A stretch of 64,000 bases of DNA, from assembly GCA_030828165.1 (NCBI GenBank), contig JAURDA010000003.1, positions 1-64,000 on the forward strand, in the 5' to 3' direction. Below the pieces are notes generated by a model. It saw nothing but the letters and a program-made list of their open reading frames with translations. It made no database searches and had not been told where the DNA came from. This stretch comes from Candidatus Poseidonia sp. (GTDB lineage Archaea > Thermoplasmatota > Poseidoniia > Poseidoniales > Poseidoniaceae). Below are positions 25,853 through 31,468 of this stretch, piece after piece (within the stretch, counting starts at the first letter, position 1; the number at the start of each line of letters is the position of its first letter). The translations under genes and the position numbers were made by a program.

Positions 25853-27295
25853 ATGGTGATGGCGGCCACTCCCGGAACAAACCACATGCCTTCCACGGGC
25901 CGATATTTGGACCAAGAACGGGTGCGTAAAGCCCTCGGTCATGCCCAAGAACTCGGCGCCGAGTATGCAGAAGTTCGGGTGATGTCGCTCACCGAGTCGA
26001 CCGTCGCCATGCGGGATGGCGTCCTCGAGAGAGCCATTCCCGGCCAAGAACTCGGGATGACCCTACGCGTCCTCGCCGACGGGGCTTGGGGCGTGCATTC
26101 GACCACCGATCTCGCTTCGTTGAACGACCAAATCGAATCGACCACCCGACTGGCCAAAGCCGTCGCTGCCCGCCGGTCGGCCAAGGACCGGCCCGTGGGG
26201 CTCGCTGAGGTTCCGATCATCGAAGACGAACAACATTGGCGCTCCGTTTTGGACGTCCGCCACACCGAACTGGACGTTAAGATGGAACTCATGAACGACC
26301 TGTACAGGGGGGCAACCGGGCACGACGACGTTGTCTCGGTCAGAACCGGATGGAGCGACGAACACCTTCACACCGAACTCATGACTACCGAGGGAATGGA
26401 TCGAGTCTGGTCCTTCCAGCGTTCCTTGATTCACGGGATGGTCACGGCTCGCCGAGACGGCGAAGTGGTCTCCTACCGAACCCGGCACGGGGGGCAAGGG
26501 GGCCTCGAAGTGATTCAGGCCTGCGACCTTGTCGAACTTGGAGAACAGGCCCAGCGCGCGGCCTTGCGCCTGCTCACCGCAGAGCGGGCCCCGTCAGGCA
26601 AGATGCCGCTGATCGCCGACCGCGACCTCACCGGCGTCTACATTCACGAAGCCCTCGGCCATCCCTGTGAAGCCGATTTGGTGGCTGCTGGAGATTCATG
26701 CCTTGATGGAAAACTCGGCCATCAAATCGGCAACGAAATCGTGACCGTGGTTGACGACCCCACCATGATGGGCGGATACGGCGCCTATCCCGTCGATGAC
26801 GAAGGCGTTGACACGCGAGAAAAGGTTCTCATCAAGAACGGCGTGTTGACGGAGTACCTCAATCATCGGGAGACGGCTCACCATTTTGGCGTCGACCCCA
26901 ACGGAGGCGCACGAGCGCAGGACGGCTTGCACCATCCTCTGGTTCGGATGTCCAACACGATGATTCAAGGCGGTCACCATGCGGACATGGACGAATTGAT
27001 GGAAGACATCGAATACGGCGTTTATGCGTGCGGAACCCGAGGCGGTCAAGTCGATACAGGTCGCGGGTCCTTCCAATTCGCTGCACAGGAGGCATGGCTG
27101 ATCGAGAACGGTGAACTCACCCGCCCCCTCAAAGACGTCAGCGTGAGCGGCCTCACGCTTCAGATTTTGAAGAACGTGGACGGCCTAACCCGAGATGCGA
27201 TGCTGGCTTCGCCTGGATTTTGCGGCAAGGGGCAAACCGTTCCTGTTGGCGACGGCGGCCCCGTGATGCGAATCCGTGAAGCCTTGGTGGGATGA
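25853..27295 (+). CDS. tldD: TldD-family metalloprotease subunit
   Basis: 480 residues. TldD and TldE (PmbA) form a heterodimeric zinc protease that degrades unfolded peptides and in bacteria processes microcin B17. The zinc motif HEALGHPCEADL (HExxxH, about 264-275) is intact in this subunit, with GGYGAYPVDDEG and YLNHRETAHHFG downstream; the C-terminal ...CGTRGGQVDTGRGSFQF resembles the family's Cys region. Start is ATG 25853. Its stop overlaps the tldE start (ATGA), indicating tight coupling. Confidence 0.9.
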   Translation: MVMAATPGTNHMPSTGRYLDQERVRKALGHAQELGAEYAEVRVMSLTESTVAMRDGVLERAIPGQELGMTLRVLADGAWGVHSTTDLASLNDQIESTTRLAKAVAARRSAKDRPVGLAEVPIIEDEQHWRSVLDVRHTELDVKMELMNDLYRGATGHDDVVSVRTGWSDEHLHTELMTTEGMDRVWSFQRSLIHGMVTARRDGEVVSYRTRHGGQGGLEVIQACDLVELGEQAQRAALRLLTAERAPSGKMPLIADRDLTGVYIHEALGHPCEADLVAAGDSCLDGKLGHQIGNEIVTVVDDPTMMGGYGAYPVDDEGVDTREKVLIKNGVLTEYLNHRETAHHFGVDPNGGARAQDGLHHPLVRMSNTMIQGGHHADMDELMEDIEYGVYACGTRGGQVDTGRGSFQFAAQEAWLIENGELTRPLKDVSVSGLTLQILKNVDGLTRDAMLASPGFCGKGQTVPVGDGGPVMRIREALVG

Positions 27296-28701
27296 GCATG
27301 CTCCCAAGCGATGCGGAAGACCGCTTGTTGGCCAACGCCAAACGGCTCGCAGATGCTTGTCGAGCCAGCGGCGTCGAGCAATGGGACCTCGTTGGCTTCC
27401 AATCCTACGGTCATGAATTGGACATTGAAGCCGGAAAAATCACGATGGCAAGCGGTGGTGGCGAAGGCGGATTCGGTTTGCGCTTGGTTGACCGGGGCCG
27501 ATTTGGCTTCGCCCATCTGGTCGACGTGACCGGTGCAGAGCGAGCGGTCAAGCAAGCCTTGGACATCGCCAACAAGTCGCCCTCGGTGAACGGATTTGTG
27601 CTTCCTTCGGCTCAACCTGCTGAAACGGTCGGCGGCCGATACGATCCTTCGTTGCTTGACGTTTCTCCCGAGGATTTGCTTGAGCAAGCGGACGGTGTCC
27701 TCTCCGAGGTTGCAAGTTTAGACGAGCGAGCCGTCGTCACGGGGGGCGGCGTTGGCATTTCCGCAACCGCCTCGTGTTTCATGAGCAGCGAAGGGATTCT
27801 CTCCTCGGGCATCACGACGTCTCACGGCATCGGCTTGCAAGTCACGATCGACGCCAACGGGGAACTGACGAGCTCGTATCAAGGAGATTCAAGCCGAGCA
27901 AAACTGCCTGAAATTCCCGCTTGCGTCGGCAGGGCCGTTCATTGGGCTCAAGTCACGCAAAACCCTCTCGAGGTGGAAAGCGAACCCGTTGACGCACCGG
28001 TTTTGATGACCAGCGAAGGCTTCTCTCCCCTCTTTTCCATGGTGGTTCCACCGGCGCTCACGGGAGAAAAAATGGTTCGCAAAGAATCGTTTTGGTCCGA
28101 TCGCATGGAGCAGCAAGTGCTCAACGAGACCTTGACCGTCGTTGACGACGGTTTGCTTGAGGGCGGCCTGTCCTCGGGGTCCAGAGACGCTGAAGGTGTC
28201 CCACGACAGCGAAGAACGCTGATTGAAAACGGTCGTCTTTGCTCGATGCTCTGGTCGACACGAGATGCTGCTCAACAGGTGGCGGAAGGGCGCATCGACG
28301 TCGCAGCATCCACCGGTTCGGCTTCCAGCGGTGGCCACCAAGCCCCGCCTTCAACCGGATGCACAGAACTGTTCTTGACCTCCTCCAAGCCAGGGCGTTC
28401 TCAACACGATCTTTTGGAAGCCATGCAAGAGGGCTACATCATCAACAGCGTCATGGGTGCGCACACAGCCAACCCGAGTAGCGGAGATTTTTCCGTCACC
28501 ACCAGCGCCATTCTCAAGGTCGAAAACGGCGAAGTCGTCGGCGCACTCAAGCAAGCGGGACTTTCGGGAAATTTGGCGAAGGCGCTCAACGGAGAAGTGC
28601 TGCTCGGCGACGAGGTGAGGCGGCAAGGTTCGTACTCTTCGGGAAGCATGCACTTGCCCGATGTCCTCCTCATGAACGGCCTTCGTGTGAACCCGGCTTG
28701 A
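27292..28701 (+). CDS. tldE: TldE/PmbA-family protease partner subunit
   Basis: 469 residues, homologous to TldD in fold but without the HExxxH motif, as expected for the non-catalytic TldE/PmbA subunit. Recognisable: a leading region with GFQSYGHELDIEAGK, the strand pair GVGISATASCFMSSEG, and near the C-terminus MQEGYIINSVMGAHTANPSSGDFSV, which is strongly typical of PmbA. Start ATG 27292 overlaps the tldD stop; ATG 27298 is an alternative. A short hairpin with a T-rich tail follows the stop. Confidence 0.88.
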   Translation: MSMLPSDAEDRLLANAKRLADACRASGVEQWDLVGFQSYGHELDIEAGKITMASGGGEGGFGLRLVDRGRFGFAHLVDVTGAERAVKQALDIANKSPSVNGFVLPSAQPAETVGGRYDPSLLDVSPEDLLEQADGVLSEVASLDERAVVTGGGVGISATASCFMSSEGILSSGITTSHGIGLQVTIDANGELTSSYQGDSSRAKLPEIPACVGRAVHWAQVTQNPLEVESEPVDAPVLMTSEGFSPLFSMVVPPALTGEKMVRKESFWSDRMEQQVLNETLTVVDDGLLEGGLSSGSRDAEGVPRQRRTLIENGRLCSMLWSTRDAAQQVAEGRIDVAASTGSASSGGHQAPPSTGCTELFLTSSKPGRSQHDLLEAMQEGYIINSVMGAHTANPSSGDFSVTTSAILKVENGEVVGALKQAGLSGNLAKALNGEVLLGDEVRRQGSYSSGSMHLPDVLLMNGLRVNPA

Positions 28702-28708
28702 ACCGTCC

Positions 28709-28730
28709 ATCCCGCCTCACGGGATTCTTT
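28709..28730 (+). terminator. Putative hairpin terminator after tldE
   Basis: ATCCCG and CGGGAT pair as a 6-bp stem with a CCTCA loop (28709-28725), followed by TCTTT. It lies 8 bases after the tldE stop. Confidence 0.4.
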
Positions 28731-28810
28731 ATGACCTGTCGTCAGTGGTGAGCCTTCCCATGGAGGTAATGGGAGTGTCCAATCTTAACCAACCCGCACG
28801 AAAGCCCGCC

Positions 28811-28862
28811 GCCTGTCCTCCGCACAGGCTACGAAGAACAACGCCTTGCGGAGGTTTGCTGC
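28811..28862 (+). promoter_or_regulatory. rpa leader hairpin whose loop is complementary to the Shine-Dalgarno site
   Basis: GCCTGT (28811-28816) and ACAGGC (28824-28829) form a 6-bp stem around the 7-base loop CCTCCGC. That loop is the exact complement of GCGGAGG (28848-28854), the rpa ribosome-binding site, 8 bases before ATG 28863. Including A28824-T28847 the long-range pairing is 8 bp. The RNA can form an H-type pseudoknot if one pair frays, or switch between two exclusive stems, one hiding and one exposing the SD. It is a candidate translational control element. Confidence 0.55.
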
Positions 28863-30551
28863 ATGGCTGAAGACAAGTATGCCGACTACATTGAGGCGAT
28901 CTTGAAGGAATGCCCCGACGCCGATGCGGCTCAAATCTCGGAAGCCTTCGCCAAGTACGAGGAAGAATTCTACATCCCTCCTCAGGACGCCATGCGTTCC
29001 GTCTTGCGTCGGTTCAAAAGCGGAACATCTCCCGCTACCGCCACCCACGGCGGGACCCGAGAGGCCAAGGCCACCAAGAAGGTGGCTTCCTTGAGCGAAT
29101 TGAACGGTTCGGATCGAGACGTTGAACTTGAAGTGGCGATCATCACCCACAACATTCGGGACCAGACCATCCGAGGCGAGGACAAGCAAATCGCGTTCGG
29201 CATGCTCGAGGACAACCCGTGGGAAGAAAACGGCACCCGTGTACGCTGGGATTACAAAGACTGGGGCCCGCATGCGAACCTGGCGGCAGGCAGCATCGTT
29301 CGGCTTGAAGGTGCGAGCGTGAACGAATACAACGGCAAAATGTCGCTGAACATCAACCAGTCCACTCGCGTTGTGGTGTTGAAAGAAGGCGTGGCGACGG
29401 TCCCGGCTTCCAACGACCCCATCGACATCGCCGATGTTCCTGCAGAAGGCTACATCTGCGTTGTTGGTCGTGTCCTTGCTTCAAGGCCCGACCAAATTCA
29501 CCGAAAGGACGGCTCAGGTTCCATCGATGTCGTTCGTGGTCGAATTGCGGACGGAACCGGAACGATTGGCTTCCTCTCTTGGGAACCTTTCGAACACGAA
29601 GTTGGCACGTTGCTCAAATTCGATGGCGCCCAAGTGCGAAGTTTCCGAAACACACCGGAACTCAATTTGGGGCGCACAACGAGGGTTGAGGTGTACCACG
29701 ATGCATCCTTTGCCGACCTCGACACGCTTTCCGACAGCGCCAACACTTCCATCTCGGGATTCACCGACGGTGCTCGAGACGTCGACGCTGTGGTGCAAAT
29801 CACGGAGCTCACGCAACGAACCTTTGAGCGGGACGGCGAAGAGAAATTCCTCTGGTCGGGTCAAATCGTTGACCCGACGGGGCGATGCCGAATGAGCATC
29901 TGGGATGAATTGCCCTTTGACCCCGCTTCCTTGCCCGTGACGGTGAGCGTAAAGGGTGCTCGGGTACGTGCATGGCAGGGCATTCCCGACATCACCGTGG
30001 ACCGAACCGAACAACTGGAAGTCCTCGAGGCCCCTCCCTGGGACGATTCCCTTGACCTCGCCAACCATTCGGTGGTCGTTCCACTCGCTGAACTCGCTGC
30101 AGGCCCCAGCCGGGTCGGTATTGAAACGAGCGGGATGGTCGTCAGCGTCCGAGAAGACTCGGGTTTCATCATGCGCTGCACGGAATGCCGCCGGGTGCTT
30201 CGTGACGGTGCATGTTACGATCACGGGGCGAACGAAGGCAACGAGGACGTCCGCTTGCGCCTCGTCGTTGATGATGACGGCGCGACCACGGCCGTTTTGG
30301 TCAACAAAGAGGCTTCCTTGGCTGCCCTCTCGATGGCCGACGATGAAATGAGGGCGAGCGTGGAGGAGCACGGTGACCTCGGTTTCGTTCAACAGGTCCG
30401 AGAGCATCTTCTCGGCCGAGCGGTCTCGGTTCGAGGTCGCACCATCGTGGACGAGCAAGGAGCGATGATCCTCGCTGAAGGTCTGAACGTCGAATCCAGA
30501 GACGCCCAGATGAGGGCGACGGAACTGCGTGCTCAATGGGGGTGGAGTTGA
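28863..30551 (+). CDS. rpa: Replication protein A (single-stranded DNA-binding, multiple OB folds, zinc finger)
   Basis: 562 residues. Euryarchaeal RPA coats single-stranded DNA in replication and repair. The N-terminus is a helical segment (ADYIEAILKECPDADAAQISEAFAKYEEEFYI). OB-fold units follow, for example VELEVAIITHNIRDQTIRGED...NLAAGSIVRLEGASVNEYNGKMSLNI, YICVVGRVLASRPDQIHRKDG and DVDAVVQITELTQRTFERDG. A zinc finger CTECRRVLRDGACYDH (about 438-453) sits in the last OB fold. Start ATG 28863 has a good SD (GCGGAGG). Its stop overlaps the next start (TGATG), giving the usual rpa and rpa-associated pair. Confidence 0.92.
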   Translation: MAEDKYADYIEAILKECPDADAAQISEAFAKYEEEFYIPPQDAMRSVLRRFKSGTSPATATHGGTREAKATKKVASLSELNGSDRDVELEVAIITHNIRDQTIRGEDKQIAFGMLEDNPWEENGTRVRWDYKDWGPHANLAAGSIVRLEGASVNEYNGKMSLNINQSTRVVVLKEGVATVPASNDPIDIADVPAEGYICVVGRVLASRPDQIHRKDGSGSIDVVRGRIADGTGTIGFLSWEPFEHEVGTLLKFDGAQVRSFRNTPELNLGRTTRVEVYHDASFADLDTLSDSANTSISGFTDGARDVDAVVQITELTQRTFERDGEEKFLWSGQIVDPTGRCRMSIWDELPFDPASLPVTVSVKGARVRAWQGIPDITVDRTEQLEVLEAPPWDDSLDLANHSVVVPLAELAAGPSRVGIETSGMVVSVREDSGFIMRCTECRRVLRDGACYDHGANEGNEDVRLRLVVDDDGATTAVLVNKEASLAALSMADDEMRASVEEHGDLGFVQQVREHLLGRAVSVRGRTIVDEQGAMILAEGLNVESRDAQMRATELRAQWGWS

Positions 30552-31468
30552 TGGAGCGTGCACGCATCTCCCGCCAACCGGCTCATTTGCTCCTCGCCTC
30601 AGAATTTGGAAGCGCAACCCTGCATGAGAAGGGCTCGGGCGAGTACGACCCATCGTTCGTTATCACAAAGCTTGGTGCAAAGGTCAATCGCGTTGTTGCA
30701 GCAGGTCTCTTGGAGCGGTTGGAGGAACGTGAAACCTCCAACGGTTCAACGCTCTACCAAGGGCAACTGCGAGACCCAACGGGACTGCATTATTTCTCGG
30801 TGGGTGACTACAACTCCGAGATGATGCGAGAACTCTCGCACCAATGGGTCGAGCGCTTGAACGACGGCGAACCTCTTCTCGTGATGATGACGGCGAAAAC
30901 GCGCTGGTATCAAACCGATGAGGGGGCCGTTTACACCTCGCTACGTCCCGAAGAAGCCTGCGTTGTTTCCCGTGACGTTTACGCAAACTGGCTTTTGGAT
31001 GCCTGTCAAAGCACGATGGTGCGAATGAACGAACACACCGCCTCGTTGGAAGTTGAACCCACGGCGGACGCTTACAACCGTGCCGGCTTGGCCAGCAGTC
31101 TCTTGGTGGCTCGCAACCATTACGGCGAGGTTGATCTCGAACCGTTCAAACTCAACCTCATGCAAGCCCTTGACATTGCCGAGGGCCGTCTTGAGGCGGC
31201 GACGACCCCCCCGCCGATGATGTCATTGCCCTCCGATCAGGGAGAAGTCAACGGTGATGGCGGTGGTGAAGGCAGCGCTGATCTTGAGGCGTTCCTCGTG
31301 CAGGTCGTGGGCCACCTCGACCAGGGAGAAGGCGTTGACTTTGACACCGTGCTGAAAAACGCTGTCGCCAGAGGGCACGTCAGGGAAAAAGCCGAATCGG
31401 TCCTCGATGAACTGCTCGAAAGCGGTCGTCTTGATGAGCCAAGGTTTGGATGGTTCAAGGTTGCCTAA
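30551..31468 (+). CDS. RPA-associated OB-fold protein (COG3390-like)
   Basis: 305 residues from ATG 30551, which overlaps the rpa stop by one base (TGATG). The start MERARISRQPAHLLLASEFG with a following OB-type domain (NRVVAAGLLERLEERE ... YQGQLRDPTGLHYFSVGDY) is typical of the protein encoded beside RPA in euryarchaea, which binds RPA and modulates its DNA affinity. The C-terminal 80 residues after an acidic Gly-rich linker look like a winged helix (ARGHVREKAESVLDELLESGRLDEPRFGWFKV), as in the C-terminus of RPA32. ATG 30536 is a less likely start. Confidence 0.85.
   Translation: MERARISRQPAHLLLASEFGSATLHEKGSGEYDPSFVITKLGAKVNRVVAAGLLERLEERETSNGSTLYQGQLRDPTGLHYFSVGDYNSEMMRELSHQWVERLNDGEPLLVMMTAKTRWYQTDEGAVYTSLRPEEACVVSRDVYANWLLDACQSTMVRMNEHTASLEVEPTADAYNRAGLASSLLVARNHYGEVDLEPFKLNLMQALDIAEGRLEAATTPPPMMSLPSDQGEVNGDGGGEGSADLEAFLVQVVGHLDQGEGVDFDTVLKNAVARGHVREKAESVLDELLESGRLDEPRFGWFKVA

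Follow-up and report, generated by a model that had tools for sequence, protein, structure and literature searches.

A class of translational coupling has been documented in which the initiation region of a downstream gene pairs with the upstream open reading frame and is opened by translation of that frame (PMC6728339). In this UTNI type of coupling, the two frames overlap by 4 or 1 nt. In Haloferax and E. coli, re-initiation by a terminating ribosome was nearly abolished once the distance reached about 20 nt (PMC10666635). In bacterial translational attenuators with leader peptides, such as the erm leaders (PMC5118997), a leader ORF precedes a main gene whose SD is held in a stem-loop, and an alternative pairing exists. 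The operator of phage T4 gene 32 is defined by a pseudoknot, UUAAA/UAAA repeats and an unstructured SD region (PMC535899). A limited literature search turned up no account of archaeal rpa leaders or of any control of archaeal rpa after transcription.

Here, the rpa leader of a Candidatus Poseidonia sp. was analyzed by computational comparison with its relatives. The window is the whole stretch of DNA considered, 64,000 nt of contig JAURDA010000003.1 (positions 1 to 64,000). The rpa product matched the NCBIfam model PRK07218 (single-stranded DNA binding protein) at an E-value of 7e-74, under the curated cut-off; replication factor A models of NCBIfam also matched, and the profile search gave no Pfam match. 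An rpa homologue is present in 234 of the 244 genomes of Poseidoniales. Directly 5' of the leader are two metallopeptidase genes of the TldD/PmbA type (25853-28701), the stop of one overlapping the start of the other. At the other end of rpa, an ORF without a family match (30536-31468) overlaps the end of the gene by 16 nt with its start, and possibly encodes a partner of RPA. Our comparison makes it likely that a short leader ORF (uORF) precedes rpa on its mRNA and houses a three-strand RNA switch, and that the translation of rpa is controlled by that of the uORF.

The homologues compared were drawn from 77 public loci and from genomes of Poseidoniales. The usable set comprised 128 distinct leaders, representing 21 genera and two families: f1, which is Poseidoniaceae, and f2, which we infer to be Thalassarchaeaceae. 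Two contigs of one genome bin (leaders L040 and L041; G007 contigs C13 and C14) carry an identical rpa leader, probably through assembly redundancy.

The rpa leader resembles UTNI-type coupling in that the rpa initiation region pairs inside the upstream ORF, except in some sub-lineages of f1, and in that the ORFs overlap in f1. Its upstream ORF is putatively translated, judging from a conserved open frame equipped with an SD and a start. It differs in that the upstream gene is a leader ORF of only about 30 codons, that the overlap is mostly 8-11 nt, that a second, mutually exclusive hairpin is conserved, and that in f2 a gap replaces the overlap and the pairing involves the uORF's own start. 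A stop and start that overlap or lie a few nucleotides apart, as in termination-reinitiation, are present in f1 and not in f2. With the erm leaders (PMC5118997), the locus shares the leader ORF, the main-gene SD in a stem-loop and the alternative pairing, and in the rpa leader, too, the pairings that involve the main-gene SD are mutually exclusive. Unlike those leaders, it is archaeal with no antibiotic or other inducer known, it would regulate a core replication protein, and its uORF runs into the main start codon.

An earlier note on this DNA had likened the leader to that of T4 gene 32. In both cases a single-stranded DNA-binding protein has an mRNA with a structured leader, but the analogy fails structurally when set against the T4 operator (PMC535899). 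The rpa leader has no conserved pseudoknot, UUAAA/UAAA repeats were not found in 28757-28862, and the rpa SD is predicted to be paired, inside a helix; a uORF is also present.

Results

The features of the leader and gene, all on the forward strand of the window, are as follows.

28728-28740, +, conserved promoter- or operator-like box TTTATGACCTGTC; a similar box occurs in most genera
28762-28767, +, uORF SD, GGAGGT; GGAGG or a close variant stands 5' of the GTG in nearly all relatives
28775-28870, +, conserved uORF VSNLNQPARKPAACPPHRLRRTTPCGGLLHG, GTG start, 31 codons, stop TGA at 28868-28870; open frame in relatives
28784-28801, +, most conserved block of the uORF, CTTAACCAACCCGCACGA, codons 4-9, L-N-Q-P-A-R
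28811-28816, +, strand 1, the 5' arm of the hairpin, GCCTGT
28817-28829, +, strand 2, the anti-SD loop CCTCCGC (28817-28823) and the 3' arm ACAGGC (28824-28829); its alternative partners are strand 1 or strand 3
28843-28854, +, strand 3, GCCT followed by TGCGGAGG, including the rpa SD; partner of strand 2 over 12 bp with one bulge
28848-28854, +, rpa SD, GCGGAGG; 8 bases separate it from the ATG at 28863
28863-28870, +, overlap of uORF end and rpa start, ATGGCTGA, 8 nt
28863-30551, +, rpa, RPA-like single-stranded DNA-binding protein, 562 aa, ATG at 28863

The uORF stop TGA sits within ATGGCTGA, which gives an 8-nt overlap with the rpa start. The entire switch (strands 1-3) falls inside this frame, which was absent from the earlier note. 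A frame that encloses all three strands and terminates on the rpa start points to its own translation as the switching force.

Conservation of the frame was evident across the sample. None of the 128 distinct leaders from the 21 genera has a stop in the first 78 nt of the frame, and the other two frames contain stops over the same 78 nt in 63 and 71 leaders. In 124 of 128 leaders the uORF stop lies between -25 and +20 nt relative to the rpa start, compared with 23 and 32 for the other frames. Beyond codon 9, the pattern used to search for leaders has no effect on the stop counts. Amongst single-base codon differences, the synonymous share is 0.42 in the uORF frame versus 0.11 and 0.23 in the other two. 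The SD stands 8 nt upstream, and a 3-nt insertion in one genus preserves the frame. Eight further leaders lie outside the search pattern, and those inspected by eye carry variants of the uORF frame. The peptide begins V-x-x-L-[NPT]-[QH]-x-[AT]-[RQH] in relatives. Column shuffles gave 14/400 for the synonymous share and 69/400 for BLOSUM, figures to be read with caution since the search pattern fixed several codons; support for selection at the peptide level is modest.

The pattern of the core block (28784-28801) was found only 5' of rpa in this and related genomes, and conservation is higher in the block than in the sequence on either side. A role for the leader in front of genes in general was considered and rejected, the core block being confined to rpa.

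The upstream box lies 44-49 nt 5' of the uORF GTG in most genera and reads TTTATGACC in f1 and TTCAAAGACC or TTCAAAGACCGCC in f2. Its position is kept although the upstream gene appears different between the two families. This genome contains a single copy, none of the eight f2 genomes searched has more than one, and the box may represent an rpa-specific promoter or operator element. If the box is a promoter, the transcript would start near 28755 and include the whole switch. In leaders L143, L147 and L175, from several f2 genera, a GGTC...GACC inverted repeat surrounds the upstream box 5' of the uORF.

The hairpin that the earlier note had reported, a GCCTGT/ACAGGC stem closing a loop exactly complementary to the rpa SD, was confirmed in every letter and coordinate. 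The 8-bp long-range stem using A28824, proposed alongside it, had been understated. CCUCCGCA (28817-28824) pairs with UGCGGAGG (28847-28854), and AGGC (28826-28829) then pairs with GCCU (28843-28846), for a total of 12 bp with a single bulge at C28825. Among the predicted folds of the leader, the one with this SD-hiding helix has the lowest energy.

A hairpin loop matching its own gene's SD by at least 6 bases was found for rpa alone among 82 genes of this genome, taken from the window and two further contigs. In dinucleotide shuffles of the upstream part, the loop/SD match was reached by 2 of 5,000, and the duplex energy was matched by 49 of 5,000 shuffles. The complementarity between loop and SD is beyond chance. 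The overall folding energy of the leader is unremarkable (z of -1.64 and -1.05), and the case therefore rests on comparative evidence. A search of Rfam with region 28650-28950 returned no curated RNA family at E-values up to 1.

Coevolution of the strands was assessed by a swap test, in which the summed duplex energy of true partners is compared with that of partners randomly reassigned between genomes, so that additive composition effects cancel. With 12 sequence classes of f1, none of 100,000 reassignments was as good as the true partners, for hairpin 1:2 and helix 2:3 alike; with 7 very different classes, p was about 2e-4, near the floor. The test with strand 2 alone had the same outcome, and five sham pairs of leader regions gave no signal. 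In column counts over 14 aligned leaders, 98.8% of cells were paired in 1:2 and 91.6% in 2:3, and each helix had three pairs in which both sides had changed. The same SD-hiding fold is formed from different sequences in g4, g5, g7, g9 and g11, including independent solutions in g7 (CCAUUGUGC/GCACGAUGG) and g5 (UCCACC/GGUGGA).

The compensatory change in both stems that the earlier note had suggested looking for among Poseidoniales was thus found in f1, in the majority of the family. A weak SD-hiding helix, or none at all, is seen in the AT-rich part of g2 (with hairpins, e.g., in L066 and L091), in L065-type leaders, in L089 and in L058. The helix is therefore a majority feature of f1 and not a universal one, and some f1 lineages have lost it. 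In f1 the uORF and rpa overlap by 1-20 nt, most often by 8 or 11; g9, g10 and g11 include a few exceptions.

The earlier note had raised both a pseudoknot and a two-state switch, and had taken the switch as the more robust reading. Since hairpin and SD-hiding helix change in concert and the sham pairs do not, a two-state switch is strongly supported by the compared leaders, in which the SD would be free with the hairpin and hidden with the long-range helix. Both pairings need the 3' arm in strand 2 and are therefore mutually exclusive; a pseudoknot as the conserved form was rejected, the long-range helix consuming that arm.

Family f2 retains a homologous uORF with a different pairing, in which the uORF SD, GTG and first codons pair with the uORF end just 5' of the rpa SD. 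The swap test on this start/end pairing over 10 genera gave p of about 1e-5 to 6e-5, and sham region pairs in f2 gave no signal. The uORF stop in f2 lies 5-27 nt before the rpa start, leaving a gap and no overlap. In the sister order f3, a comparable uORF was not seen in 16 leaders. These f3 leaders (L197-L212) show a clear TATA-like AAGTTTATAACCC, and in place of the uORF they have a short hairpin just before the SD, with a stem sequence that differs between genomes.

Discussion

The effect of a ribosome on the leader was modelled by placing its footprint along the uORF. A footprint over strand 1 alone left the unpaired probability of the rpa SD near 0.05; with a footprint over strand 2 it rose from 0.00 to roughly 0.5, and positions farther along gave 0.9-1.0. 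We therefore propose that uORF translation would open the rpa SD, by the logic of upstream-translation-dependent initiation (PMC6728339), and that hairpin 1:2 would then hold it open. In RNA that is not being read, the stronger 2:3 helix would conceal the SD. A ribosome traversing the uORF would melt this helix and terminate on the rpa start, and hairpin 1:2 would re-form first behind it, because strands 1 and 2 emerge ahead of strand 3, acting as a latch that keeps the SD open. Either a fresh subunit landing on the opened SD or the terminating ribosome, through re-initiation, could then start on rpa.

Family f2 may work differently from f1. Given the steep fall in re-initiation by 20 nt (PMC10666635), f2 probably relies on opening and not on re-initiation. 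In f1, re-initiation perhaps operates in addition to SD opening.

A second explanation is that the uORF acts through its peptide, the N-terminal V-x-x-L-[NPT]-Q-x-A-R stalling the ribosome on a signal so that the stall position picks the helix, as in erm leaders. This would agree with a conserved motif placed just 5' of the switch, with the use of all four wobble bases at Leu codon 4 and of several Arg codons at position 9, and with the three-strand arrangement itself. We nevertheless consider it unlikely, as no stalling motif or inducer is known for it, the evidence for peptide-level selection is modest, and the modelled footprint on strand 1 alone keeps the SD hidden, so that a stall would need to sit over strand 2. 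A broader proposal is that such an attenuator sets RPA's own level, with RPA or a replication-stress signal acting on the uORF block to shift the RNA between the two exclusive, coevolving folds, the sister families having solved the same task with two RNA architectures around a homologous uORF. That proposal is speculative and, in our judgement, also improbable at present.

Autogenous repression, in which free RPA would bind the leader at the single-stranded block 28784-28801 or at the hairpin and lower its own synthesis by stabilizing the SD-hidden state or blocking the uORF start, seems quite unlikely. In its favour are the nucleic-acid-binding nature of RPA, a leader block that is found with rpa only and is better conserved than the sequence around it, and a phage precedent for an Ssb protein (PMC535899). 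Against this, the T4 operator features (pseudoknot, UUAAA repeats and unstructured SD region) are missing, and the block reads as conserved codons of an open frame.

It is very unlikely that the uORF is simply the gene of a small functional protein of the rpa operon, with RNA pairing merely setting expression ratios. The open frame is kept across the order and the overlaps are operon-like, the next gene also overlapping rpa, but conservation is limited to roughly the first 11 codons, the C-terminal half changes along with the RNA pairing, and the uORF peptides have no Pfam family match. That GC-rich leaders yield such complementarity as a by-product without function is hardly credible, even with fold z-scores of merely -1.05 to -1.6 and an SD-hiding helix missing in some lineages, given that both helices change in concert with null shams, that the swap tests contradict it and that the loop/SD match is unique among the 82 genes.

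Translational coupling or attenuation of rpa through the uORF and its switch thus remains our preferred reading, and in Poseidoniales uORF translation probably decides the amount of RPA. The leader offers defined compensatory mutants for reporter tests, the organisms themselves being uncultured. The RPA level is important for replication and repair. If the proposal is true, an abundant marine archaeal order would carry a conserved uORF-based switch whose architectures have diverged between two families.
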